Below, in pieces: positions 19,944 through 33,080 of a stretch of DNA of 64,000 nt (position 1 is the first letter of the stretch; each line of letters begins with the position of its first letter). The notes beneath the pieces were generated by a model that searched no databases, was not told the DNA's origin, and saw only the letters and a list, made by a program, of their open reading frames with translations. This DNA is from Lactobacillus sp. (lineage in GTDB: Bacteria; Bacillota; Bacilli; Lactobacillales; Lactobacillaceae): positions 514,999 to 578,998 of the forward strand of contig JAKVKU010000001.1 of the NCBI GenBank assembly GCA_022484695.1, written 5' to 3'. A program made the position numbers and the translations under genes.

Positions 19944-19972
19944 TTGAAATTTTCACTATTTCGTGATATATT
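19944..19972 (+). promoter_or_regulatory. Strong promoter of the nitrogenase-like cluster
   Basis: TTGAAA (19944-19949), an exact 17-bp spacer and TATATT (19967-19972). Transcription would start near 19979, leaving a leader of about 110 bases before the first gene. It stands in the 300-bp gap between greA and the cluster. Confidence 0.7.
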
Positions 19973-19976
19973 TCAC
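19963..19976. promoter_or_regulatory. GTGA-N6-TCAC palindrome over the -10 box
   Basis: GTGA and TCAC flank TATATT, so the dyad is centred exactly on the -10 hexamer. The arms equal the core of CRP/FNR-family sites (TGTGA-N6-TCACA). Position on the -10 box would mean repression. A second dyad, GAGACA-CC-TGTCTC, lies at 20005-20018 in the leader and may be a hairpin or another operator. Confidence 0.5.
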
Positions 19977-20024
19977 TTAGGTGTATTTTTCCTGGCACTA
20001 ACGGGAGACACCTGTCTCAATAAT

Positions 20025-20038
20025 TGTAAGCGCTATCA
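20025..20038. promoter_or_regulatory. cre site (CcpA) upstream of the nitrogenase-like cluster
   Basis: TGTAAGCGCTATCA matches the cre consensus TGWAANCGNTNWCA at every position. It lies about 45 bp after the predicted transcription start, where CcpA normally represses, so the cluster should be shut off on preferred sugars. Confidence 0.75.
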
Positions 20039-20092
20039 AATCTAAAATGTTTTCCAACGAAGCTTTAACGATGAAAGGAATGAGGCATAATT

Positions 20093-20350
20093 ATGGCTAC
20101 GACGATTGCAGTGATCGGGATTATTGTAGAAGACATGAGTTCCACACCAAAATTAAATGCGATTTTACATGAACATCGGACCAAAATCGTGGGCCGCATG
20201 GGCTTACCTTATCGCCAGCGGGGTGTCCACGTTATCAGTATCGTGATCGATGCCCCCACTGAAGAAATCAGCGCTTTGACCGACCGGGTCAGTGAATTGC
20301 CTGGGGTCCACGCCAAGACCGCTTATTCAAATGTGGTGACGGATGGATGA
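20093..20350 (+). CDS. TM1266-type small regulator (iron-only hydrogenase system regulator family)
   Basis: An 85-residue protein with an ACT-like alternation of strands and helices. Key features are an IAVIGIIVED start, the IVGRMGLPYRQRGVHVISIVID core, APTEEISALTDRVSELPGV and a final KTAYS. This is the pattern of the TM1266 family, whose genes accompany [FeFe]-hydrogenase maturation genes and are annotated as putative regulators; their ligand is unknown. It opens the twelve-gene cluster, with GAGG seven bases before ATG 20093 and an ATGA overlap with the next gene. A related domain is fused to the cluster's ABC ATPase. The exact function is inferred only from family and context. Confidence 0.85.
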   Translation: MATTIAVIGIIVEDMSSTPKLNAILHEHRTKIVGRMGLPYRQRGVHVISIVIDAPTEEISALTDRVSELPGVHAKTAYSNVVTDG

Positions 20351-21390
20351 CCACGGCTCCGCATGCTTTGGCCAGCACTGATAACACCGGGGTCTCCTGG
20401 CGTTGGAAGTTAATCCTGGCCATATTGCCCTTAGCGGCGGCCATTTTTTCTTTATGTGTGGGCCGGTATGCCATGGCACCTCAAGACATTTGGCATGCCC
20501 TCACAGATAAGTTCACAGGAACAGTGACAGTTGCCCCACAAATTTCCACAGTTTTATGGCAGATGCGTCTGCCCCGAATTTTATTGGCTTTGATTGCCGG
20601 TGCTGGTTTATCGGCTTCCGGTTGTGCCTTTCAAAGCCTATTTTCTAATCCTTTAGCCACACCAGATACCCTGGGTGTGGCTTCTGGTGCTTCTTTTGGG
20701 GCCGCCTTAGCCCTGTTAATGGGCTTTAAAATGTTAGGGGTTCAGACCGTTTCCCTCTTATTTGGGCTCATTGCCCTGGCTTTGACGGCTTTAGCGGGTA
20801 CCGGCAAGCGCCAGCGCAATATGAACAGCGTGGTGTTAGCCGGGATCATGATTGGTTCCTTGTTCACCGCCTTAGTGTCCTTGGTGAAATTTTCGGCAGA
20901 CACCGAAAGTCAGTTGCCCGCCATCACCTATTGGCTCATGGGCAGTCTGGATTCCGCCAGCTACGACTCATTATTATTAGGGGCACCGCCGATTTTGGCC
21001 GGCATCACCGTCTTGATTTTATTGCGCTGGCGCTTAAATTTATTGCCCTTAAGTGACGAAGAAGCCCGCACTACCGGCGTGAATATTCGCGCCATTCGGG
21101 TGGTCACCATCTTATGTGCCACTTTGATTACCGGTTCGGTGATCTCCATGTGTGGTCAAGTGGGATGGGTAGGGTTACTCATTCCTCACATGTGCCGGAT
21201 GAAATTTGGCAATAACCATGTGGCCTTGCTACCAGCGTCCGTATTAGCCGGCGGGGCTTTCTTGATCGTGGTGGATACCGTGGCCCGGAGCTTCTCGGCG
21301 GCTGAATTCCCAATTTCGATTTTAACAGCTATTATTGGCGCCCCATTCTTTATTTATCTCATGCGGCGCACGGGAGGTTGGCAGTTATGA
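20347..21390 (+). CDS. FecCD-type ABC permease (metal-chelate/corrinoid family)
   Basis: 347 residues with about 9-10 transmembrane helices. Family motifs include RLPRILLALIAGAGLSASGCAFQSLFSNPLATPDTLGVASGASFGA near residues 74-118, and GWVGLLIPHMCRM close to the C-terminus, which contacts the ATPase. The family imports siderophores, haem, cobalamin, molybdate and other complexes through FecB/BtuF-type binding proteins, two of which are encoded later in this cluster. The start ATG overlaps the preceding stop (ATGA), and its own stop overlaps the ATPase start in the same way, so translation is coupled. Only one permease gene is present, so it would act as a homodimer. The transported compound is unknown. 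Confidence 0.93.
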   Translation: MTTAPHALASTDNTGVSWRWKLILAILPLAAAIFSLCVGRYAMAPQDIWHALTDKFTGTVTVAPQISTVLWQMRLPRILLALIAGAGLSASGCAFQSLFSNPLATPDTLGVASGASFGAALALLMGFKMLGVQTVSLLFGLIALALTALAGTGKRQRNMNSVVLAGIMIGSLFTALVSLVKFSADTESQLPAITYWLMGSLDSASYDSLLLGAPPILAGITVLILLRWRLNLLPLSDEEARTTGVNIRAIRVVTILCATLITGSVISMCGQVGWVGLLIPHMCRMKFGNNHVALLPASVLAGGAFLIVVDTVARSFSAAEFPISILTAIIGAPFFIYLMRRTGGWQL

Positions 21391-22463
21391 AGTTGACCGT
21401 ACAACAGGGCCGTTTTGGCTATAGCCCGGATAAGCCAGTGATTCAAGATTTAAACTTCAGTGCTGAATCCGGCGAGCTGATTGCCATCTTGGGCCCAAAT
21501 GGGGTGGGAAAAACCACGCTTTTGCGCTGCATCATGGGTTTGTTGAAGTGGCAGGGCGGCACCAGCACCATTGATGGCATCGACATTAACGCCATGTCCG
21601 CCAAACAACTCTGGCAGCAAGTGGCCTATGTGCCCCAAGCCCGGGGCGCTTTTGCGGCCTTGACCGCCCAAGATATGATTTTACTGGGCACCACCAGCCG
21701 CATTGGCCTGTTTTCGACCCCGGGGCCAAAGGAGCGCCAGCTGGTTTATGAACTGGCCGAAAAGCTGGGCATTCAAAATTTGTTGGCCAAGAAATGTAAT
21801 GAAATCAGTGGCGGTGAACTACAAATGGTCCTCATCGCCCGGGCCATGGCCGCCCAACCTAAACTGTTGATTTTAGACGAACCGGAATCTAACTTGGATT
21901 TCAAAAATCAATTGATTGTCTTAAATGCCATGACCGATTTAACCACTGCGGGGATCTGCTGTATTTTTAATACCCACTATCCCAACCATGCCTTGTTACG
22001 GGCGTCGTCTTCCTTGTTATTGCAAAGCGGCGGCCAAGCTATTTTTGGCGAGACGTCACAAGTGGTAACTGCCGCCAATATTCAAGCGGCCTTTGGGGTG
22101 GATGCTGTGATTGGGGCCATTGAAACCCCAGAAAAAATCTATCCCACGGTGATGCCCCTGCGCTTGACGGCTAAAAAGACCGCCACAGCTCCTGATTCGG
22201 CTGCGACCCAGCCGGTCATCGCCACCGTGGCCATTATGGTGTCTGATTCCACTGTGACCACCACCATCAATAACCTGCTTTCGACCTATGAAACCTATAT
22301 CATTGGGCGCTTAGGACTCCCACAGCAGGTCCAGGGCGTGGCGGTGATCAATGTGGTGCTAAAAGCGCCAATTAATATCATTAACGCGTTGACCCACCGT
22401 ATCGAGATTTTACCCCAAGTTTGTACTAAAACCACCGTGGCTAATCCAGAAATGCTGACTTAG
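21387..22463 (+). CDS. ABC ATPase (FecE/BtuD type) fused to a C-terminal TM1266-like domain
   Basis: 358 residues. The ATPase part (1-250) has Walker [10 protein letters not shown] (36-44), a Q-loop VAYVPQARG, signature ISGGE (about 140-144), Walker [10 protein letters not shown] and the H-loop FNTHYP (H197). A Thr/Ala-rich linker leads to residues about 278-358, which repeat the pattern of the cluster's first gene: ATVAIMVSD, then [24 protein letters not shown], then [14 protein letters not shown] and CTKTTV. ABC importers of this class do not normally carry such a domain, so the fusion may let the sensed signal gate transport. ATG 21387 overlaps the permease stop and follows GGGAGG. A TTG at 21378 is rejected. 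Confidence 0.92.
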
Positions 22464-22515
22464 ACCAGGGCCGTTGCGAAAGAAAGTACCAGTAGTGACA
22501 GAAAGAAGGATAAGC

Positions 22516-23280
22516 ATGCTAAATATTGCAGTTTATGGTAAGGGCGGCATTGGGAAGTCCACCACGGTGGCCAATGTGGCGGCGGCTTTGGCTGAAAGGG
22601 GCTTGAAGGTCATGCAAATTGGTTGTGACCCCAAAGCCGATTCCACGATTTTACTCCGAGGCCCCGCTGAAATGCCCACGATTTTAGACCTGGTGCGCCA
22701 ACACCAAGATGACATTACCTTGGCCGATATGACCCGGACCGGTTTTAAAGGCATCATCTGTGCCGAAGCCGGGGGACCAACGCCAGGAATGGGCTGTGCC
22801 GGCCGGGGCATCATTGTGGCCTTAAGCAAGCTCAAGGAAAAAGGCGCTTATGAAACCTTCAAGCCCGATATTGTCCTCTATGATGTGTTAGGGGATGTGG
22901 TCTGCGGCGGTTTTGCCATGCCCATGCGGCCGGGGTACGCCGATTACGTCATGGTGGTGACTTCTGGAGAAAATATGTCCATTTACGCGGCGGCCAATAT
23001 CGCCATGGCCGTGGATCGCTTTAAAAATCGGGGCTATGCCAAATTTGGCGGCTTGATTTTAAACCGGCGCAAGGTCAAAGACGAGGCTGACAAAGTTCAA
23101 ACCTTGGCTGATGACATCCACACCCAAGTCATCGGTGACATCGATCGCAGTGACCGGATTCAACAGGCCGAAGAACTAGGCCAGACCGTGGTTGAAGCCT
23201 TTCCCGAAGACCCCATTACCCAGGAATACCGGCAATTGGCCGCGGGGATGTTGACGGCCTGTGGGGTGTCCACATGTTAA
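22516..23280 (+). CDS. NifH-like ATP-dependent reductase (nitrogenase iron-protein superfamily)
   Basis: A 254-residue P-loop protein. It has GKGGIGKST (residues 8-16), the CDPKADST switch (37-44), [13 protein letters not shown] with C94, and [15 protein letters not shown] with C130. The two cysteines correspond to the pair that holds the intersubunit [4Fe-4S] cluster in NifH, BchL and CfbC homodimers, and the [11 protein letters not shown] switch II is intact. It should deliver electrons with ATP hydrolysis to the NifD/K-like partners encoded next. ATG 22516 is set by AGAAGGA; an upstream TTG (22474) adds 14 unrelated residues. The stop overlaps the next start. Similarity does not by itself separate nitrogenase from other reductases. 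Confidence 0.93.
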
Positions 23281-24596
23281 GGCGCCTGGGGGAGGCTAAG
23301 CCCCAGGTGGCACTGCCCATTGGTGAAGCCACTTTTCCCCAACCTTTTAAGACTGGGTTAGCGTATTCCGTCTTATCTTGTGGGGGTTGGCCCCTGGTCC
23401 ATGTGGGGATGTTGGTCCCAGAAGCCCATTTGATTTTTGTTTGCCCGCAAAATTGCCTGCGGGGAGTCACCTTGGTGGCCGCCCAAATGCAGGCGGCCGA
23501 TCGTTTTTCCACGGTAGCTGTTTTAGAAGCTGATGTGATTGACGGGGACATGGAGGCCTTGACCATTGATGGGGTTGCTGAAATTATCGCCCATTTGCCT
23601 AAACGACCTCCGGCTGTGTTGGTATTTACCAACTGTATTCATCACTTTGTGGGCACGGATTTAGAGGTGGTATATGCTACCTTGCGGGAAAAATACCCCG
23701 ACATTCAATTTACGGATTGTTATATGAATCCCATCATGCGCCAAAGCGGCCTGAATCCGGAACAAACCATGCGCAAACAGCTTTACAGTTTATTAAAGCC
23801 CCAGGCTAAAGACCAGCATTCGGTGAATATCATTGGCAATAATTTTCCCATGGATGCCAGTAATGACTTGATGCAATTGTTGACAAAAAATGGGTTTACC
23901 CCCCGGGAAGTGACCACCTGTCAAAATTATGACCAATATCAAGCCATGGCTAGCAGTGTTTTAAACATTATCACCTTACCCGTGGCGCTGGCCGCGGGAA
24001 AAATGTTAGCTGAAGAACTAGACCAACCGCCATTATTCTTACCTTTAACCTTTGATGCCACGGAAATTAGCACCCAATTGCAGCAGTTGAGCGCTGCCCT
24101 AGACATTGCGCCACCGGATGTGACGTCGGTAAAAGCCCAAAGCGAAGCCGCCTTGGCCGCAGCACTTGCGGATATTGGCCAAACACCAATTGCTATCAGT
24201 TTTTCAGCCTGCCCAAGACCCTTGAGCTTGGCGAAATTATTGTTAGATCACGGCTTTAATGTGACCAAAATATTCGCAGATATGTTTATTTCTTTAGAAG
24301 CTGCCGACTTTGCGGCCCTGCAGAAAATGAAACCGGACCTTGAGCTTTACCCCCTGACCCAAGCTACTATGCGCCAATTGCCCCGGACCAGTACTGAGCC
24401 CACCTTAGCTATTGGGGCGGAAGCGGCTTATTATACCGGCACAGGGCATTATGTGGATTTGATCGAGGGCTCAGGCTTGTTTGGCTTCAATGGCATTGTT
24501 CGCTTGGCCCAATTGCTACAACAGGCCCATAGAACCGTCCAAGATCAGCGTAACTTGATTCAAATTGCCAATCGAGGCCGGGGGTGTTTACTATGA
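23274..24596 (+). CDS. NifD/NifE-like subunit of a nitrogenase-superfamily complex (pair 1)
   Basis: 440 residues of the oxidoreductase nitrogenase component 1 fold. Cysteines lie where cluster ligands are expected: C36 in SCGGW, C57 and C61 in CPQNCLRG, and C121 in TNCIHH. C149 (TDCYMNP) and C216 (TTCQNYDQY) are also shared with the second copy. Later GPRPLSL-type segments (here SACPRPLSL) and [12 protein letters not shown] are family-like. The protein is shorter than NifD and closer to NifE/CfbD/BchN-sized members. The start ATG overlaps the NifH-like stop by a few bases, and the stop overlaps the next start (ATGA), implying a stoichiometric complex. Substrate unknown; N2 reduction is improbable without NifB. 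Confidence 0.88.
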
Positions 24597-25726
24597 GACA
24601 AGTCGCCCAAATCACACCTGCTTATACCGGGGATGTTTCTGGGGTTTGTTCCGCGCTTTATGAACTGGGGGGCATGATTGTGATTCACGATGCCGCTGGC
24701 TGTGGGGCAACTTACAGCGCCTTTGATGAACCCCGTTGGTATAGCCACGATGGCTTGGTGTTTGTGTCCGGATTGACGGAGAATCAAGCCATCTTAGGGG
24801 ATGATCAGCAACTGATCAACGACACCATTGAAAGCGCCCAAGCCTTACAGCCTAAGTTTATTGCCTTAGTGGGTTCACCCATCCCCATGATCACCGCGGT
24901 GGACTTTCCGGCGATTGCTCGCGAACTTGAAACGGCCACCGGGATACCCACCATGGGTTTTGAAGCCACGGGGATGCATTCTTATATTGCTGGGGCAGCC
25001 AGGGCCTTTGCGGGATTAGCCGAAAAAATGGTTCGGGAACCTGACACTAAAACGCCAGCATTACGGCTCAACATTTTAGGCGTCACGCCCCTGGATTTTG
25101 GCATCAACGGTAGTGCTCAAGGGCTGCGCCAGGTTTTTGAAGCCCAGGGTATTCCAGTGCAAGCCGTTTGGGCCATGGGCGCTAGTTTGGCCGACATTGA
25201 AGCGTCAGCAAACGCCAGTGTTAATTTGGTGGTTTCAGCCGCCGGTTTAAAAGCGGCCAGAGTTTTACAGCAGCGCTTTGACATGCCTTATGTGGTGGGG
25301 GTTCCCTATGGCCCGCAACACACCGCCAAGCTAATTGCGGCCCTGCAGCAGACTTTAGGAGACCGGCAAAATCGGGTCGTGGGTAAAGTCCAACGTGACC
25401 CCAAGACCGTTATTATCGGCGAAAGTGTCACCGCCCTATCCCTGGTGCAAGCCCTGAACCTGCCAGCCACCGTGCTATGTCCCGTGACCAGCGATGCTGA
25501 AATATTAAGCCAAGGTGTGATTAAGACCAATTCTGAGGCTGATTTATTACCTTATTTAAAAGCGGCCACGACGATCATCGCCGATCCCTTATATCAGCCA
25601 ATTTGTCCTAAAGCAGCGCGGTTGGTGCCTTTACCCCACGTTGCCTTTTCCGGGAATACTTATCAAACAACTATGCCAGCGTTGATTACGGGATTTGAAC
25701 AATTTCAAAAACAATTTGGATTCTAA
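24593..25726 (+). CDS. NifK/NifN-like subunit of a nitrogenase-superfamily complex (pair 1)
   Basis: 377 residues. The N-terminus shows SGVCSALYELGG (C19) and HDAAGCGATY (C37), matching the first two ligand cysteines of component 1 proteins. A GLTENQAILGD segment follows, recalling the TE-hydrophobic-GG motif of the family. The third ligand position is GSPIP (94-98), with no cysteine. Further on are NILGVTPLDFGINGSA, the AMGASLADIEASANASVNLVV helix, and PYVVGVPYGPQ. ATG 24593 overlaps the stop of the D/E-like gene. It is expected to pair with the preceding product and to hold a shared Fe-S cluster at the interface, as in NifEN, BchNB or CfbD. Function beyond this is open. Confidence 0.88.
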   Translation: MRQVAQITPAYTGDVSGVCSALYELGGMIVIHDAAGCGATYSAFDEPRWYSHDGLVFVSGLTENQAILGDDQQLINDTIESAQALQPKFIALVGSPIPMITAVDFPAIARELETATGIPTMGFEATGMHSYIAGAARAFAGLAEKMVREPDTKTPALRLNILGVTPLDFGINGSAQGLRQVFEAQGIPVQAVWAMGASLADIEASANASVNLVVSAAGLKAARVLQQRFDMPYVVGVPYGPQHTAKLIAALQQTLGDRQNRVVGKVQRDPKTVIIGESVTALSLVQALNLPATVLCPVTSDAEILSQGVIKTNSEADLLPYLKAATTIIADPLYQPICPKAARLVPLPHVAFSGNTYQTTMPALITGFEQFQKQFGF

Positions 25727-25780
25727 GCTTTAAATACTTAAGTAAGTTCTGTCAGGTGAAAAATGGAGGAAGTTTTTTAA

Positions 25781-26914
25781 ATGAAGAAGTTTATAAAAGT
25801 AGTGATGACCCTAATGGCGTTAGTTTTGGCGCTGGGATTGATTGCCGGTGGGAGCGGCCAAAGCCAAGCAGCAACTAGTAAAACGGCAACGACCACTACC
25901 GTTACGGACCAGGCCGGTAATAAGGTCAAGGTTCCTAAGAAAATAAAGCGGATTGCGGTGGTGCAAATCTATCCGTTACCATCAGTTTTAGCAACATTCT
26001 TTAATTCAGCTGATAAAATTGTAGGAATGCCGGTGGCTAGTATGAAGGCCGCTAAAAATGGCTTGTTATCACAACTTTATCCAGATATTTTGAAGGCTAA
26101 AACAAATTATGATGATCCTACGGGCAACAGTGTTAATACTGAAGAACTAAAAAAATTGAAACCGGATATTGTTTTTTATAATGCTAAAGACCCGGCTATG
26201 AAGAAAAAATTGCAGAATGCCGGATTTACGGCAGTGGGTATCTCGACCATGAACTGGAATTTTGACACAATCAAAACTTTAAATAATTGGATTGCGTTGC
26301 TTTCTAAAATTTTCCCGGCTAACAAAGACCGAGCGAATTACGTTAAAAAATATAGCAATCAGGTATACGCGGATGTGCAAAAACGGGTCAAGAAAGTTAA
26401 ACCCGCTGATAAGCAGAAAGTCTTTTTCTTATTCCAATATTCAGACTCTATGATTCAAACTTCGGGTAAAAATTTCTTTGGCCAGTATTGGGCAGATGCC
26501 ATTGGTGCGACTAACGTGGCCTCGGGGTTATCAGCCAAGTTAGGCACAACCGTGAATATGGAACAAATTTACAGCTGGAATCCACAGGTTATTTTTATTA
26601 CCAACTTCACGCCAGCACAACCACAAGATCTCTACCAGAATAAGATTGGCAGCAACGATTGGAGCAAGGTGTTGGCCGTTCAAAATAAGCGGGTTTACAA
26701 GATGCCGCTAGGGATGTACCGCAGTTATACACCAGGCGTGGATACCCCAATCACTTTGTTATGGTTAGCAAAAACCACTTATCCGAAACAATTTAAGGAC
26801 ATCAATATTACGCAAGAAACCAAGGATTACTACAAAAAGGTCTTTAACGTTAAATTAACCAATAAGCAAGCCCAATCCATTTTTAAACCATCTTCTGCCG
26901 CTTCAGCATACTAG
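25781..26914 (+). CDS. FecB/BtuF-type extracellular binding protein 1, without lipobox
   Basis: 377 residues with an N-terminal signal (KKFIKVVMTLMALVLALGLIAGG) and a probable SQA-A cleavage site, then the VTDQAGNKVKVPKKIKRIAVV start of the Peripla_BP_2 (class III) fold. NTEELKKLKPDIVFYNAK and MEQIYSWNPQVIFITNF are the usual lobe motifs. It should deliver a metal complex or similar ligand to the FecCD-type transporter of the cluster. Oddly, the protein contains no cysteine, so it lacks the lipobox expected for a Gram-positive binding protein. GGAGG precedes ATG 25781. It is 54 bp after the K-like gene and clearly related to the second binding protein at the cluster end. Confidence 0.9.
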   Translation: MKKFIKVVMTLMALVLALGLIAGGSGQSQAATSKTATTTTVTDQAGNKVKVPKKIKRIAVVQIYPLPSVLATFFNSADKIVGMPVASMKAAKNGLLSQLYPDILKAKTNYDDPTGNSVNTEELKKLKPDIVFYNAKDPAMKKKLQNAGFTAVGISTMNWNFDTIKTLNNWIALLSKIFPANKDRANYVKKYSNQVYADVQKRVKKVKPADKQKVFFLFQYSDSMIQTSGKNFFGQYWADAIGATNVASGLSAKLGTTVNMEQIYSWNPQVIFITNFTPAQPQDLYQNKIGSNDWSKVLAVQNKRVYKMPLGMYRSYTPGVDTPITLLWLAKTTYPKQFKDINITQETKDYYKKVFNVKLTNKQAQSIFKPSSAASAY

Positions 26915-26934
26915 CTTTTTAAGGAGGCTATAAA

Positions 26935-28167
26935 ATGGGATTAAACGACACACCATCCAGCGAACGGGTACACATTGGCTTTTTTGGACGCCGCAATGCT
27001 GGCAAGTCTAGCTTGGTCAATGCGGTAACGGGGCAAGATTTAGCCGTTGTCTCAACAACCAAGGGTACTACCACTGATCCTGTGCGCAAGGCCATGGAGC
27101 TGTTACCTTTGGGGCCCGTGGTGATTATTGATACACCGGGGTTTGATGATGTCGGCGACCTGGGAGAACTGCGGGTCAAAAAGACCAAGCAAGTCTTAAA
27201 TAAGACTGATATCGCAGTACTGGTCGTGGATGCCACGGCAGGCTTAGCCCCTAGTGACCAGCAGTTATTAGACCTATTTCATAAAAAACAGGTAAACTAC
27301 TTAATTGCCTTGAATAAAAGTGATTTAATGACCACTTTACCGGCGGCCAAAGCTAATGAAATCTACGTTAGTGCTGCAGCAAAAACGGGAATTCATGAAT
27401 TTAAGGAGCGCTTAGCTCATTTACGCCCCCAAGTGGCTGTTGAACAGCCCTTGATTGGGGATTTGATTCAGCCAAAAGATGTAGTGGTTTTAGTGACCCC
27501 CATTGATGAATCCGCGCCTAAAAGTCGCCTGATTTTACCCCAGCAAATGATGATTCGTGATATTTTAGACCACCATGGCATTTCCATGGTAAGCCAAGTC
27601 CCAGAATTGGCGGCCACCTTGGCCAGCTTAAAGGTGCCACCAGCCTTGGTAGTGACTGATTCTCAAGCCTTTGCCGAAGTGGCCAAAATCACGCCAGAAA
27701 GCATCCCGTTGACCTCGTTTTCCATTTTGATGGCCCGCCACAAGGGGCTATTGACCCAGGCGGTAGCCGGGGTACGGGCAATTGATGGATTGCAAGACGG
27801 CGACCGGGTTTTGATTGCCGAGGGCTGTACCCATCATCGCCAGTGCGGGGATATTGGCAGTGTGAAATTGCCTAACTGGTTGAAAAAACGGACGGGTAAA
27901 AATGTGACGATTGAACTGGCCAGTGGCACGGGCTTTCCTGAGGATTTGGCAGACTTTGCCCTTATCATTCACTGTGGGGCTTGTATGCTAAATGGTCGGG
28001 AAATGCTGAATAGAATGCAACGGGCTGAAGTTCAAGGCGTACCTATGACCAACTACGGGACTGCCATTGCCTATATGAAGGGCATTTTACCCCGAAGTGT
28101 AACTATGCTCCCCGACGCACTGGCGGCTTATGAATCTGGTCAACCAGTTGTGCCAGATACGCGATAA
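26935..28167 (+). CDS. HydF-like GTPase with [4Fe-4S] motif
   Basis: 410 residues in the HydF order: an N-terminal Era/TrmE-like GTPase with GRRNAGKSS (18-26), G3 DTPGFDD, G4 NKSD (127-130) and G5 SAAAK; a dimerisation domain; and a C-terminal cluster domain. The last has C298-x-H300 and H346-C347-x-x-C350, fitting the HydF pattern CxH-x(46-53)-HCxxC. HydF is the scaffold that carries the two-iron precursor of the [FeFe]-hydrogenase H-cluster. Here no hydrogenase gene is visible, so it may serve another acceptor. AAGGAGG precedes ATG 26935. It sits directly before a HydE-like gene, between the two nitrogenase-like pairs. Confidence 0.92.
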   Translation: MGLNDTPSSERVHIGFFGRRNAGKSSLVNAVTGQDLAVVSTTKGTTTDPVRKAMELLPLGPVVIIDTPGFDDVGDLGELRVKKTKQVLNKTDIAVLVVDATAGLAPSDQQLLDLFHKKQVNYLIALNKSDLMTTLPAAKANEIYVSAAAKTGIHEFKERLAHLRPQVAVEQPLIGDLIQPKDVVVLVTPIDESAPKSRLILPQQMMIRDILDHHGISMVSQVPELAATLASLKVPPALVVTDSQAFAEVAKITPESIPLTSFSILMARHKGLLTQAVAGVRAIDGLQDGDRVLIAEGCTHHRQCGDIGSVKLPNWLKKRTGKNVTIELASGTGFPEDLADFALIIHCGACMLNGREMLNRMQRAEVQGVPMTNYGTAIAYMKGILPRSVTMLPDALAAYESGQPVVPDTR

Positions 28168-28218
28168 TAACGGTTTAATAGCAGTTCTTCAAATGAACGT
28201 AAGAGTGAGGAGATAAGT

Positions 28219-29265
28219 ATGGCGACGAATATGGCCTTGATCAATCAATTGATGGACCAGCACAGTTTGACCCATGACCAGTGGACGCAATTGCTGGCAA
28301 CATATACACCTGAGGACCAGCAAGCAGCAGCCGACATCGCCCGGGATTTAACCATCCAGCACTTTGGCAAGCAGATTTTTTTTAGAGGTATTGTTGAATT
28401 TACCAACTATTGTCGTAATGATTGTTTTTATTGCGGCATTCGCCATGGAAATCGCCAAGTTGAACGCTATCGGCTAACCAAAGATGAGATATTGGCATGT
28501 TGCGAAGATGGTTATCAAAATGGTTTTCGTACCTTTGTCCTGCAGGGTGGCGAAGACCCTTATTTCACTGAAGATATTTTCGCGGATATTATTGCCACTA
28601 TTCGCAAGCGCTATCCGGATTGTGCCATCACTTTATCCATTGGTGAGGGCACCACGGCGGCCTATCAGAAATACTATGACGCCGGTGCGGATCGCTTTTT
28701 ATTGCGCCACGAATCGGCCACGCCGGCGTTATATCAACGCTGGCATCCAGCCTATCAACACTTTGAACACCGGATGGCTTGTTTGGAAAACCTGAAAGCT
28801 ATTGGATTTCAAACTGGCTGTGGCTTTATGGTGGGTGGGCCTTATCAAACCGCAGCTAATTTAGCTGACGATATGGTTTACATTACCAAATTCAAACCAG
28901 CCATGATTGGCATTGGTCCCTATGTCCCTCATAGTCAAACGCCATTTCGTGATTTTCCTGCTGGTAATGAGGATTTGACGCTCTTCATTTTGAGTTTGTG
29001 TCGGATTCTTTTTCCTAAAGTATTGTTACCGGCGACCACTGCCTTGGGCACTGTGCAGGGAGATGGTCGGCAGTTAGGCGTATTGGCCGGCTGTAATGTG
29101 GTGATGCCCAACCTATCACCATTACGTTTTCGCAAGCAATACTTACTTTATGATAATAAAGCCGGCATCAATGATGATGCTGCCACGGGGATTCAGAAGC
29201 TTTCTGATCAAATGACGGCCATTGGCTATACTGTTGTCAAAAGTCGGGGCGATTATCGTCCCTAA
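28219..29265 (+). CDS. HydE-like radical SAM enzyme
   Basis: 348 residues with the radical SAM cluster motif C65-RND-C69-FY-C72 following FFRGIVEFTNY, the arrangement seen in HydE, PylB and BioB relatives. The LRHESATPALYQRWHP region and the C-terminal GCNVVMPNLSPLRFRKQYLLYDNK are HydE-like. The C-terminal cysteine set for the non-essential second cluster of some HydE proteins is missing; that segment reads NKAGINDDAATG. HydE acts in the H-cluster maturation pathway between HydG and HydF. No HydG or HydA gene is seen here, so the substrate may be different. GAGGAG precedes ATG 28219, and the gene is 51 bp after the HydF-like gene. Confidence 0.88.
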   Translation: MATNMALINQLMDQHSLTHDQWTQLLATYTPEDQQAAADIARDLTIQHFGKQIFFRGIVEFTNYCRNDCFYCGIRHGNRQVERYRLTKDEILACCEDGYQNGFRTFVLQGGEDPYFTEDIFADIIATIRKRYPDCAITLSIGEGTTAAYQKYYDAGADRFLLRHESATPALYQRWHPAYQHFEHRMACLENLKAIGFQTGCGFMVGGPYQTAANLADDMVYITKFKPAMIGIGPYVPHSQTPFRDFPAGNEDLTLFILSLCRILFPKVLLPATTALGTVQGDGRQLGVLAGCNVVMPNLSPLRFRKQYLLYDNKAGINDDAATGIQKLSDQMTAIGYTVVKSRGDYRP

Positions 29266-29306
29266 AGCTTTGAGGCGTGCAATCTGAAAGGCAGATGTAG
29301 CACATA

Positions 29307-30662
29307 ATGAAAAGAACACCGAATAACTTTATTGCATTGAAAAACATTGCAGGCAGTTACGTGGGCACCACATTGCCAATTAGCAAGGCGACTTTTCCGG
29401 TACCTTTTTATGAGGGTTTAACGTATTCGCCGCCAGCTCGCGGTGGTTGGAATATCGTTCATATTGGCTTGACCCTGCCCCAGGCCCATCTTATCTTTGT
29501 TTGTCCAGAGGGATGCCTGCGGGGGGTGGTTTTAAGCGCCGCCGAACTGGGTGTCCCTGAGCGCTTTTCTACAATTGCAGTGGGTGAAGATAATATCTTA
29601 TCTGGAGATATCGAAGATCAAATTATTACTGGGGTTAGCCATATTATTGATAAGTTGCCAAAGCGGCCACCGGCTGTGTTAGTTTATACCAGTTGTATTC
29701 ATCAATTTTTAGGAATTGATATTGATATGGTCTATGATGCCTTGCGGGCAGACAATCCGGATATTGATTTCACAGATTGTTATATGTTCCCAATCATGCG
29801 CAAGAGTGGTCCTAATCCCGTTGAAATGATGCGGCGGCAACTTTACAGCTTGTTAACACCGATCCCTAAGAATTCCCGGGCTGTTAACATCATTGGCAGT
29901 GATTTGCCCTTGCCCAAAAGTAGTGACCTCTATCAGCTTTTAGCAGCCAATAATTTTGAACTTCATGAAATTGGTAGTTGTCAAGACTACCAGGCTTACA
30001 AGCAAATGGCTGCCAGTAGCTTTAATATTACGATTTTACCTTCAGCTATTAAAGCTGGGGAGTTGCTGGCTGAAAAGCTGCAACAAACCCATATTTATTT
30101 GCCCATGAGTTTTAATTATGCTGAAATTGATGCCAGTTTTCAGCGGTTAAGTCAATTATTGGGCATCACCTATCAACGCAATGATGAATTAATTGCAAAA
30201 GCAGAACGAGCCTTGGCTCAGACCAAGGCACTGGTTGGCAATATGCCAATTGCCATCGACTATACTGCTGGGCCACGGCCATTGAGCTTAACCCGGATGT
30301 TGTTGGAACACGGTTTTAATGTAACCGATATTTATGTAGATTCTTTTCAAGTGGAAGAAGAAGCCGATCTTGCAATTATTCAAAAAATTGCTCCCAATTT
30401 AAAATTACATCCTACAATAGATGTGGGGATGCGGGCTATATCGCGACAACGGCCCACGGAAACCTTAGCCATTGGTCAAAAGGCGGCTTACTTCTCAGGT
30501 GCCACGCACTTTGTCAACATTATTGAAGGTGGCGGTCTATTTGGGGTCGATGCAGTTTATCAAATGGCTAAGTTGATTGCAGCGGCCTATCAAACACCGC
30601 AAGATACGGAAGCTTTGATTCAAGTCAAGGCACTGAATTGGGGATGTGAGTGTAACTTATGA
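29307..30662 (+). CDS. NifD/NifE-like subunit of a nitrogenase-superfamily complex (pair 2)
   Basis: 451 residues, clearly paralogous to the pair-1 subunit over its whole length (shared RGGW/CGGW, LIFVCPxx[17 protein letters not shown], PIMRxSG, RRQLYSLL and ATHFVNIIEGGGLFG-like segments). C66, C70, C130, C158 and the CQDYQAY cysteine are kept. The first ligand cysteine is replaced: SCGGW of copy 1 reads ARGGW here (R45). The C-terminus GCECNL has extra cysteines. The start ATG 29307 has only a weak, distant AAAGG site. The stop overlaps the next gene by ATGA. A non-catalytic, scaffold or alternative-substrate role is possible; this is inference. Confidence 0.88.
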   Translation: MKRTPNNFIALKNIAGSYVGTTLPISKATFPVPFYEGLTYSPPARGGWNIVHIGLTLPQAHLIFVCPEGCLRGVVLSAAELGVPERFSTIAVGEDNILSGDIEDQIITGVSHIIDKLPKRPPAVLVYTSCIHQFLGIDIDMVYDALRADNPDIDFTDCYMFPIMRKSGPNPVEMMRRQLYSLLTPIPKNSRAVNIIGSDLPLPKSSDLYQLLAANNFELHEIGSCQDYQAYKQMAASSFNITILPSAIKAGELLAEKLQQTHIYLPMSFNYAEIDASFQRLSQLLGITYQRNDELIAKAERALAQTKALVGNMPIAIDYTAGPRPLSLTRMLLEHGFNVTDIYVDSFQVEEEADLAIIQKIAPNLKLHPTIDVGMRAISRQRPTETLAIGQKAAYFSGATHFVNIIEGGGLFGVDAVYQMAKLIAAAYQTPQDTEALIQVKALNWGCECNL

Positions 30663-31804
30663 AATATACAGCACGCATTATTTCAAGATATACCTGTGAC
30701 ACATCCGGTGTTTGCTCGGCGCTATATGAACTGGGCGGGATGACCGTGATGCATGATCCAGGGGGTTATGGTTCTATTTATGCCACTCATGATGAACCCC
30801 GTTGGTATGATTCTGAAAGTTTGATTTTTGTATCTGGGCTAACGGAGACCCAAGCTATCTTAGGGGATGATACGAAACTCGTGCAGGACACACTGCAAGC
30901 GGCTAGAAGAGTACAGCCTAAATTCATCAGCTTGACGGGTTCCCCAATTCCGGCCGTGGTGGGGACGGATTTTGAAGCTTTGGCCTTTGAAATTGAAAAT
31001 GAACTTGGCATTCCGACCTTTGGATTTGATACGGATGGTATGCATACTTATGTAGCGGGGGTGTCTAAGGCCTTGGCAATGGTTGCCCAGCGATTATGTC
31101 AGCCTGGCCAATCTAAATTAGCTGGAGTCGTCAACATTCTTGGTGTGACCCCGCTGGATTTTTCAATCAATGGTTCAGCGGAAGCTCTAACCCAAGTATT
31201 AAGTGACCGGGGCCTAACAGTTCAAGCTAATTGGGCCATGACCAGTTCATTGGTCCAACTTGAGGCCGCTGGTGCGGCCAGCGCGAATCTAGTGGTTACG
31301 GCCGGGGGCTTAAAAGCCGCCCAAATTTTGCAGGATCGGTTTGGGACACCTTATGTTTTGGGGACACCTTATGGGCCGAATTTGACCGATACCATTGTAA
31401 CAGCCCTTAATCTAGCGGCCACAACTGGGGAAAATCAGTCGGTGATCAATGTTCCGCAAGATACGGGCACCATTATTATCGGGGAAAGCTTAACGGCACT
31501 ATCCTTGGCAACGGCTATTTTTCGAGCAACTGGCCGGGGGGCGACCATTATTTGTCCCACAGAATCTGAAACTGAAATATTGGCTTATGGCTGTTTAACG
31601 ATTCGGGATGAAGATGATATTGAAAGTTATCTGCACCATGCTGATACAATTATTGCCGACCCTATGTATCAACCTATCTGCCCACCAAATGCTAAATTTG
31701 TGCCATTGCCCCATGAAGCTTTTTCCGGCCGGATTTATCATAGCACCATGCCAAATCTAGTGACTGAATTACCAGAATTTCTGGCAGCACAAAACTTGGA
31801 TTGA
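30659..31804 (+). CDS. NifK/NifN-like subunit of a nitrogenase-superfamily complex (pair 2)
   Basis: 381 residues, paralogous to the pair-1 K/N-like protein, with the same SGVCSALYELGG (C19), GLTETQAILGD, TGSPIPAV, ILGVTPLDFSINGSAEAL and PYVLGTPYGPN segments. The second ligand cysteine is gone: HDAAGCG of copy 1 is HDPGGYG here (Y37). An additional cysteine, C13 (RYTCDTSG), appears instead. Together with R45 in its partner, this means the interface cluster of pair 2 would have a changed ligand set. ATG 30659 overlaps the stop of the D/E-like gene, so the two are translationally coupled. Confidence 0.88.
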   Translation: MKYTARIISRYTCDTSGVCSALYELGGMTVMHDPGGYGSIYATHDEPRWYDSESLIFVSGLTETQAILGDDTKLVQDTLQAARRVQPKFISLTGSPIPAVVGTDFEALAFEIENELGIPTFGFDTDGMHTYVAGVSKALAMVAQRLCQPGQSKLAGVVNILGVTPLDFSINGSAEALTQVLSDRGLTVQANWAMTSSLVQLEAAGAASANLVVTAGGLKAAQILQDRFGTPYVLGTPYGPNLTDTIVTALNLAATTGENQSVINVPQDTGTIIIGESLTALSLATAIFRATGRGATIICPTESETEILAYGCLTIRDEDDIESYLHHADTIIADPMYQPICPPNAKFVPLPHEAFSGRIYHSTMPNLVTELPEFLAAQNLD

Positions 31805-31845
31805 TAGTATCAAAGTTGTTCTAATATTGGGAGGTCTATTGAAGT

Positions 31846-32988
31846 ATGTCTAAGCACGTTCAAAAAATAGTCAAATTGGTTATAGCTGTCTTTGCCCTGG
31901 TACTGGCCGTCAATATCGGCGCTGGTACCTATCAGACACAAGCAACAACAGTTAATGCTGCCAGCACCAAGCAAACTAAAACCATCACGGACCAAGCGGG
32001 TAATAAAGTCACACTGCCCAAAAATATTAAGCGGGTTGCCATCGTGGGCTCCATTTGGCCTCTGCCATCAGTAATGGCGGTCTTTTTCAACTCAGCTGAT
32101 AAAATTGTTTCTATGCCTGAACCTAGCATGGTGGCCGCTAAACACAGCCTGCTTTCTGAATTATACCCAGGCATTTTAAAGGCCAAGACGGCCTCCAACG
32201 ATGGCACGACCATCAACACGGAGGAACTGAAAAAAGTTAAACCAGATGTGGTCTTCTATGGGGCTGAAGATACCAAAATGCAGCAAAAGCTCACCAATGC
32301 CGGCTTCAAGGCCGTGGGGATCTCTGTTGGTAAATGGAAGGGTAATACCATCGAGACGGAAAACAATTGGATCAGTTTACTATCCCAGATTTTTCCCAAG
32401 GATAACAAGGCCAAAATTTTAAAGGATTATAGCAATAAAGTTGCCAAACTGGTGCAAAAGCGGACAAAAAATATCAAGCCCGCCGAGCGTCAAAGTGTCT
32501 TCTTCCTGAGGCAATATAGCAGTACAGCCATCATCACTGGCGGGACCGTTTCCTTTGGCCAATATTGGGCCGATGCCATCAATGCTAAAAATGTGGTGGA
32601 TATTCCTAATTCCAACAACGTGACCCAAGTCACCATGGAGCAGATTTACCAATGGAATCCCCAACATATTTTAGTCACCAACTTCAATAGTGCCATGCCT
32701 AAGGATCTGTATAACAATACAGTAGGTAACTATGATTGGGGCAAGGTTGCCGCGGTGAAAGACAAACAAGTAGCCAAGATGCCTATGGGGATGTATCGCA
32801 GTTATACCCCAGGTGTTGACACACCAATCACCTTATTGTGGGTGGCCAAGACAGTTTATCCCAAGCAATTTAAAGATATCAACCTGGTGAAAGAAACCAA
32901 GGCTTACTACAAGAAGGTCTTCAAAATCAATTTGACCACCAAGCAGGCTAATAAAATTTTGAAGCCAGATACGTCTACTTGGCAGTAA
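31846..32988 (+). CDS. FecB/BtuF-type extracellular binding protein 2, without lipobox
   Basis: 380 residues with a signal peptide (IVKLVIAVFALVLAVNIGAG) and likely Ala-X-Ala cleavage near NAAS, then TITDQAGNKVTLPKNIKRVAIV, INTEELKKVKPDVVFYGAE, FGQYWADAINAKNV, MEQIYQWNPQHILVTNF and MGMYRSYTPGVDTPITLLW, nearly all shared with binding protein 1. Like that protein it has no cysteine and so no lipobox. GGGAGG precedes ATG 31846. It is the last gene of the cluster. Having two binding proteins for one permease/ATPase set suggests two related ligands, perhaps one for each nitrogenase-like pair. That pairing is inference. Confidence 0.9.
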   Translation: MSKHVQKIVKLVIAVFALVLAVNIGAGTYQTQATTVNAASTKQTKTITDQAGNKVTLPKNIKRVAIVGSIWPLPSVMAVFFNSADKIVSMPEPSMVAAKHSLLSELYPGILKAKTASNDGTTINTEELKKVKPDVVFYGAEDTKMQQKLTNAGFKAVGISVGKWKGNTIETENNWISLLSQIFPKDNKAKILKDYSNKVAKLVQKRTKNIKPAERQSVFFLRQYSSTAIITGGTVSFGQYWADAINAKNVVDIPNSNNVTQVTMEQIYQWNPQHILVTNFNSAMPKDLYNNTVGNYDWGKVAAVKDKQVAKMPMGMYRSYTPGVDTPITLLWVAKTVYPKQFKDINLVKETKAYYKKVFKINLTTKQANKILKPDTSTWQ

Positions 32989-33032
32989 GTGTCAAGTGAG
33001 ATCTGAAATAAGTAACTTGTAAATTACAAAGT

Positions 33033-33080
33033 AAAAACACCTGTACTGGGGTTTTCAAGCCCTAATACAGGTGTTTTATT
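33033..33080 (+). terminator. Terminator of the nitrogenase-like cluster
   Basis: AAAACACCTGTA pairs with TACAGGTGTTTT, and T residues follow. It lies 45 bp after the last gene of the cluster and faces the convergent secreted-protein gene. Confidence 0.88.

Follow-up and report, generated by a model that had tools for sequence, protein, structure and literature searches.

A 64-kb stretch of contig C1 from a genome of the genus Agrilactobacillus (G000; 3.34 Mb in 25 contigs), referred to here as the window, contains an operon in which the [FeFe]-hydrogenase H-cluster maturases HydE and HydF are encoded together with nitrogenase-like proteins (NifH, D and K) and a FecBCD-type importer. Our results suggest that this operon is probably a HydG-substituting branch of H-cluster assembly, which would supply its iron–CN–CO building block. 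The link of the system to H-cluster assembly by gene pattern is well supported, and the system is real, conserved and, as far as we found, undescribed. A search of the open-licence PubMed Central (PMC) literature returned neither the proposed connection between nitrogenase-like proteins and the H-cluster, including any part of HypCDEF in [FeFe]-hydrogenase maturation, nor a described pathway with this gene set, as a preliminary description of the window had supposed.

The operon comprises twelve genes on one strand (20093-32988) with short gaps or overlaps between neighbours, and gene calls and family profiles bore out the set, order, strand and position first described. Families were assigned by Pfam and NCBIfam profiles, using curated (equivalog) cut-offs where available. 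The genes and control elements are:

19944..19972, + strand: extended -10 promoter-like site (TTGAAA-17-TATATT), from a pattern scan
20025..20038, + strand: cre-type site, 1 exact match in the window with 0.15 expected
20093..20350, + strand: TM1266-family regulator (TIGR03959, 101 bits against a cut-off of 60.8)
20347..21390, + strand: FecCD-type ATP-binding cassette (ABC) permease (PF01032)
21378..22463, + strand: FecE-type ATPase with a C-terminal TM1266 domain (PF00005)
22516..23280, + strand: NifH-like ATP-dependent reductase, C94 and C130 present (Fer4_NifH)
23274..24596, + strand: D1, nitrogenase component-1 fold (Oxidored_nitro)
24584..25726, + strand: K1, with an ATG at 24596 (Oxidored_nitro)
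25781..26914, + strand: FecB1, substrate-binding protein (Peripla_BP_2, PF01497)
26935..28167, + strand: HydF, H-cluster maturation GTPase (TIGR03918, 549 bits against a cut-off of 326)
28219..29265, + strand: HydE, radical S-adenosylmethionine (SAM) H-cluster maturase (TIGR03956, 515 bits against a cut-off of 255)
29307..30662, + strand: D2, second D-type subunit, 49% identical to D1 (Oxidored_nitro)
30659..31804, + strand: K2, second K-type subunit, 53% identical to K1 (Oxidored_nitro)
31846..32988, + strand: FecB2, second substrate-binding protein (Peripla_BP_2)
33034..33077, + strand: intrinsic terminator hairpin (-26.2 kcal/mol, z -5.7)

HydE and HydF, at first called only 'HydE-like' and 'HydF-like', exceed their curated cut-offs and are thus members of these families, and both match solved HydE and HydF structures. 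The residues singled out earlier were all confirmed in the sequence: C94 and C130 of NifH, the CxH...HCxxC motif of HydF (CTH...HCGAC) and the CxxxCxxC motif of HydE (CRNDCFYC). D1 shares 65% identity with an Agrilactobacillus yilanensis protein. The operon had also been described as running from a strong promoter to a terminator; the hairpin upholds the latter, and the promoter-like site, among the three best of 28 matches where shuffled sequences give 21.7, is suggestive only. We take the site at 20025..20038 to be a catabolite-repression (cre) element. The second TM1266 domain occupies residues 281-352 of the ABC ATPase, at its C terminus, and through this fusion the sensor may act directly on the importer. 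At the edge of the window, a T-box leader (383-630) scored above the Rfam gathering threshold.

Comparison across genomes revealed two forms of the system. A profile for D (A1), built from the two window proteins and 33 of the best 120 of 1381 matches, found 298 relatives in named genomes, 80 of which were kept. We annotated 100 loci, 73 of them at least 12 kb long (55 from the neighbourhoods of D relatives and 18 from a Clostridia sample, in which 20 stretches were taken from 19 of the 23 D-bearing genomes). Defining type F by the presence of the FecBCD importer and type H by at least two Hyp genes, we counted 48 type-F loci, 19 type-H loci, none with both and six with neither (L013, L014, L026, L156, L163 and L167, in which a contig end cuts the locus or the cluster is split). 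The type-F order, to which the operon of the window belongs, is TM1266-FecCD-FecE-(HydE)-NifH-D-K-FecB-(HydF), and the type-H order is NifH-D3-K3-HypF-C-D-E-(TM1266)-D-K-(HydF-HydE). Both share NifH, D and K, mostly TM1266 (44/48 type-F and 11/19 type-H loci) and often HydE or HydF (30/48 and 9/19), and they differ by one module, with the type-F importer occupying the place of HypFCDE and the second nitrogenase-like pair, D3K3 (19/19), of type H.

Individual loci tie this gene set closely to hydrogenase genes. In L165, NifH-D3-K3-HypF-C-D-E-TM1266-NifH-D-K-HydF-HydE form a single run, overlapping or at most 20 bases apart when the first possible starts are used. HydA, the [FeFe]-hydrogenase catalytic subunit, comes first in the operons of L162 (HydA-NifH-D3-K3-HypF-C-D-E-TM1266-D-K-HydF-HydE) and L181 (HydA-HydE-HydF-TM1266-NifH-D3-K3-HypFCDE). 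In Loigolactobacillus rennini (G202, L182) HydA lies 1.5 kb upstream of a type-F operon, and profile searches of that genome found neither HydG nor HypD; its HydA reading frame is split in the draft genome (L182 5792-6070 and 6077-7513). The HypF, C, D and E proteins of type H have the usual length. A working cyanide transfer is expected to involve a HypE ending in PRIC and a HypC starting with MC; HypE ended in PRIC in all four type-H loci read (or three of three, counting L153, L162 and L164 apart from L038), and HypC started with MC in three of them; in the remaining locus a start further upstream is possible.

The same D–K pairs occur with either module, because type-F and type-H D proteins fall in one clade of a tree of 64 D proteins (Shimodaira–Hasegawa-like approximate likelihood ratio test (SH-aLRT) 100), with type H at two places inside it; D3 forms a separate clade (SH-aLRT 100). 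In this tree, which included NifD and BchN but no Mar, Isr or CfbD sequences, the D proteins stood apart from NifD and BchN as a clade of their own. The deep branches are long (about 10 for BchN and 6.4 for NifD) and unreliable, and only the inner D and D3 clades were used.

NifH, D1, K1 and D2, the proteins tested, fell below every nitrogenase-family curated cut-off. The window NifH scored 320 bits against 394 for NifH, 305 against 402 for CfbC, 209 against 345 for BchL and 168 against 331 for BchX; K1 scored 30 against 268 for CfbD and 62 against 490 for BchB; and D1 scored 22 against 425 for BchY. The candidate assignment of the operon as a nitrogenase or as a member of the CfbCD or dark-operative protochlorophyllide reductase (DPOR) systems was rejected on these cut-offs. 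Membership in a characterised group, which the preliminary description had taken as the case against its view, was thus not seen for NifH, CfbC, BchL, BchX, NifE, BchB or CfbD, the families covered by curated scores.

AlphaFold models of D1 (predicted local distance difference test (pLDDT) 87.8) and K1 (pLDDT 80.1) both adopt the nitrogenase component-1 fold, with template-modelling (TM) scores of about 0.6 to 0.7 against chains of nitrogenase, NifEN, DPOR and Mar. Three D residues, C57, C61 and C121, are cysteine in 95/95 aligned D proteins, and C36 of K (numbered from the ATG at 24596) is cysteine in 91/97 aligned K proteins; D C121 aligns with BchN C114, and K C36 with NifD C98 and NifK C95. 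At the position equivalent to the cofactor cysteine of NifD (C287), K has S214, D3 has N245 and D has T234; for D the alignment is weak, and HMMER alignment to NifE places the site one residue further on. Position 234 is cysteine in only 8 of the 95 D proteins, and the K site is serine or threonine in 97/97. D C216, 18 residues before position 234, is cysteine in 78/95 and may have a role. As judged by alignment, this arrangement fits one [4Fe-4S] cluster with an open, DPOR-like cavity and not a nitrogenase-type cofactor.

If these proteins act in H-cluster assembly, their distribution should be read against that of HydG, which makes Fe(II)(cys)(CN)(CO)2 before HydE reduces it and, as is thought, dimerizes it and HydF carries and completes the product, according to PMC12752695. 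Among 50 cluster-bearing genomes, HydE exceeded its cut-off in 50, HydA in 49 and HydG in 12, the other 38 giving only HydE- or ThiH-type scores with the HydG model. We also searched 392 class-Clostridia genomes, sampled evenly and requested at a completeness of at least 95% (values not displayed); four of them (G215, G223, G224 and G227) belong to both sets. HydG exceeded its cut-off in 232 and HydA was found in 370. D matches occurred in 35, of which 23 were strong (E below 1e-120, a bound set after a gap in the table had been seen) and 12 weaker (1e-100 to 1e-11). HydG was over the cut-off in none of the 23 strong-D genomes, compared with 232/392 overall, and all 23 had a HydA match, one of them weak (G580, E 2e-12). 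The association between D and HydG over all 392 genomes gave a Fisher value of 4e-10. Forty HydG-minus genomes had some HydG-model match, and 31 of them were read as HydE-bearing from the E-values and counts of these cross-matches, mostly without their positions, a proxy based on such a cross-match occurring in 50/50 genomes known to have HydE. Strong D was present in 23 of these 31 genomes versus none of the 232 with HydG, in which HydE was unchecked (Fisher 1.2e-26).

HypD, sought in 80 chosen genomes, was found in 0/49 type-F handles, the genome of the window included (48 genomes, as G003, of the window's genus, and the A. yilanensis genome G199 share their HydG coordinates and are apparently one). 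It was present in 3/3 type-H acetogens, in both D-bearing genomes with Hyp genes on another contig (G613 and G517), in 2/8 genomes read as HydE-plus without HydG and D, and in 4/18 with HydG. Within the 50-genome set, 43 loci count as type F by holding a Fec gene (FecB in 42; some loci are cut by contig ends), and 33 of these 43 genomes have neither HydG over the cut-off nor HypD, so that our searches revealed no known origin for their CO and CN ligands.

A missing hydG has been noted before in acetogens. In Di Leonardo et al. 2022 (PMC9431212), eight Clostridium acetogens all have HydE and HydF, hydG is reported in only three and unfound in five, and no straightforward explanation is given for the missing gene; HypCDEF is listed in all eight and HypAB in three, leaving five with HypCDEF but not HypAB. 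The same study lists a candidate HydG for C. autoethanogenum. An [FeFe]-hydrogenase is functional in this group, as HytA-E of that species has been characterized and is called its main H2 oxidizer (PMC5861303 and PMC9040625). The word 'nitrogenase' appears once in PMC9431212, in its reference list. Our searches agree with that survey in finding no HydG over the cut-off in C. carboxidivorans, C. ljungdahlii and C. ragsdalei, and HydG in C. drakei.

The genome of the window itself contains HydA (contig C16) with all three H-cluster motifs (TSCCPGW, MPCVAK and EVMACPGGC) and a single HydG (885 bits) on contig C1, about 140 kb before the window and absent from the operon. The operon's HydE is the sole other match of the HydG model in this genome, so the operon very likely supplies HydE for the strain's HydA. 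A reading of the operon as HydE and HydF without a hydrogenase was rejected, since HydA and HydG are present in the same genome. Among 199 relatives of this genome, K was found in three (G000, G003 and G035, the last with the same hit coordinates as the L. rennini genome G202) and HydG over the cut-off in three (G000, G002 and G003), so each occurs alone and both occur together. One of these, the Agrilactobacillus genome G002, has HydG and a HydE-type match without the nitrogenase-like K and forms a natural contrast to L. rennini. The preliminary description had rightly placed the operon in an anaerobic iron-cofactor setting; its choice between a system that produces or employs such a cofactor and one that acts as a reductase on an imported complex needs sharpening, and HydA and HydG elsewhere in the genome, like the HypCDEF-bearing form, lay outside its view.

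The importer is complete in the window, with a permease (PF01032), an ATPase (PF00005) and a binding protein (PF01497). FecB1 has a signal peptide-like start. Gram-positive binding proteins are expected to be anchored by a lipobox, and a simple pattern finds one in at least 54 of 75 FecB relatives; a sequence check showed that FecB1 and FecB2 contain no cysteine at all and hence no lipobox. The nearest solved relatives of FecB1 are 4ovk (no ligand named), 3psa (HI_1472) and 4ino (nickel/iron). Runs of FecB paralogues occur in Loigolactobacillus bifermentans and L. binensis (eight in L064, 7187-15988, and six in L026, 5300-14652, respectively), three of which by eye start without a signal peptide and may be cytosolic.

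We propose that in type H, HypCDEF would make iron-bound cyanide and CO, as for [NiFe]-hydrogenase, with the help of D3K3, and that in type F the importer would bring in an equivalent or precursor compound. NifH would pass ATP-driven electrons to a [4Fe-4S] cluster at the D–K interface (predicted ligands D-C57, C61 and C121 and K-C36), which would reduce the precursor bound in the open, DPOR-like cavity. D–K with NifH would thus prepare a mononuclear building block, and the product would be handed on to HydE, next to HydF and finally to HydA. In the strain of the window, where HydG is present, the operon may be a second source of the building block, one that, given the cre-type site, is perhaps drawn on when preferred sugars run low, and its HydE and HydF likely serve both the HydG and the nitrogenase-like routes.

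Several points weigh against this proposal. The chemistry is inferred from one line of evidence, the gene pattern that we observed, and the D and K cysteines match a [4Fe-4S] cluster by alignment alone. Replacement of HydG is not absolute, as 12/50 cluster-bearing genomes, and the window's own, retain it. The comparison in Clostridia uses a bound for strong D chosen post hoc and a proxy for HydE; 10 of the 12 weaker-D genomes have HydG, and D is lacking in 8 of the 31 HydG-minus genomes to which HydE was assigned by this proxy. Moreover, at least 98 of the 392 genomes have HydA with no HydE or HydG match by the HydG model, and lack of HydG alone therefore proves no need; the argument that HydA without HydG needs a substitute was dropped as a sole argument for this reason, and HydE-type matches took its place. 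Each of the eight acetogens has one [NiFe]-hydrogenase, according to PMC9431212, and their HypCDEF may serve that enzyme. Finally, some FecBCD–NifHDK operons carry no Hyd genes, namely those on plasmids of Treponema and Sporomusa and at six Clostridia loci. Apart from these points, HydA inspected from 12 genomes with no HydG-model match (L184-L195) had TSCSPGW instead of TSCCPGW in 10.

These Hyd-free operons indicate that the importer and the nitrogenase-like enzyme also pair for another purpose, and they speak for a different explanation, in which reduction of an imported organic or metal compound is itself the task of the complex, HydE and HydF sharing the operon only through common anaerobic use. 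The retention of HydG in 12/50 cluster genomes agrees with it. We consider it unlikely, as it leaves unexplained the occurrence of D in 23/31 HydG-minus but 0/232 HydG-plus genomes, the HypFCDE form whose operon includes HydA and the presence of TM1266 in 44/48 type-F loci, and the Hyd-free systems placed in the tree fall outside the D clade. Six of the 12 weaker-D genomes (L172-L177) carry this group, with D-K-FecBCD operons that lack HydE, HydF and TM1266; the protein behind a 30% HydF match in L177 was assigned by Pfam to the EngA-type GTPases. In the NifH-D-K-FecB-FecCD-FecE loci of this group, a CRP-type regulator (L175 and L176) and a CobW/HypB/UreG-type GTPase (L175) adjoin the operon, also by Pfam. 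Two further loci are L178, which is partial, and L179, which is related and FecB/NifH-D3-K3-like. The plasmid-borne FecBCD and NifHDK-like genes belong to Sporomusa termitida (L169), where the set is close to a TonB-dependent siderophore receptor gene, and Treponema saccharophilum (L168).

HypCDEF account for cyanide, the anaerobic source of CO is open, and nitrogenases can reduce CO2 to CO. On this background the nitrogenase-like complexes might supply one ligand only, such as CO from CO2, with FecBCD importing plain iron. HypD was found in none of the 49 type-F handles, so cyanide would also need a source, and D and K conserve no FeMo-type cofactor ligand; this account is improbable. It is more improbable still that D–K is itself the client, a new kind of reductase that receives a CO/CN-bearing iron cofactor from HydE/HydF or from HypCDEF. 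Both maturase sets do adjoin the same D–K family, and the FeMo-cofactor cysteine of NifD is not conserved in D or K, which would leave room for another ligand or cofactor, but HydG-less genomes would then have no known ligand source for their HydA, which was matched in 23/23. Very unlikely too is a diverged radical SAM enzyme that replaces HydG where none is recognized and is unrelated to the nitrogenase-like genes: an atypical candidate of about 450 amino acids is proposed for all the acetogens except C. autoethanogenum in PMC9431212, but the HydG model gave only HydE- or ThiH-type scores in the 38/50 genomes under its cut-off, and such an enzyme would leave the gene neighbourhoods unexplained.

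If a HydG-substituting branch exists, the construction of a hydrogenase cofactor would be a further function of nitrogenase-like enzymes, and [FeFe]-hydrogenase maturation would be possible without HydG. It would offer a testable answer for acetogens such as C. ljungdahlii, in which hydG is not recognizable and HypCDEF persists without HypAB. It would also draw HypCDEF into the maturation of [FeFe]-hydrogenases, would pose the question of which compound type-F bacteria take up and might lead to new tools for the production of active hydrogenases. A wider picture is conceivable, if doubtful: a second natural H-cluster pathway whose nitrogenase-like enzymes receive their supply from HypCDEF or, in gut and food bacteria such as that of the window, through an importer for a preformed iron-cyanide/carbonyl compound that other microbes release, an organometallic precursor thus being shared between species.

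Among known systems, NifEN and NifHDK resemble the operon in the component-1 fold (TM about 0.6 to 0.7) and the architecture of NifH, yet NifH falls short of the family cut-off (320 versus 394 bits) and the cofactor cysteine is not conserved in D or K. BchLNB is similar in that K matches BchB (PDB search, E 6e-9), D C121 corresponds to BchN C114 and no FeMo-type ligand is conserved, but the scores are far under the curated cut-offs and the operon has no tetrapyrrole genes. MarBHDK and IsrBHDK likewise combine, within one operon, a nitrogenase-like reductase and a radical SAM partner, as described in PMC12552129 and PMC11423573, whereas the partner here is HydE. The D-family profile matched MarD weakly (PDB search, E 0.0038). 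Mar contains, besides a P-cluster, an [Fe8S9C] cluster with a cysteine ligand (PMC12552129), the equivalent of which does not appear to be conserved in D or K, as judged through the weak D–NifD alignment and not from MarD itself. The HypCDEF assembly of Fe(CN)2CO for [NiFe]-hydrogenase is matched by the usual lengths of type-H HypF, C, D and E and the PRIC end of HypE in the four loci read; it differs in that HypD was not found in type-F genomes and the type-H hyp genes are often beside HydF, HydE or HydA. Like the HydEFG system, the operon has HydE and HydF over their cut-offs and TM1266, with HydA in the genome and in related operons, but in the place of HydG it carries NifH-D-K and FecBCD, and its relatives HypFCDE and D3K3.

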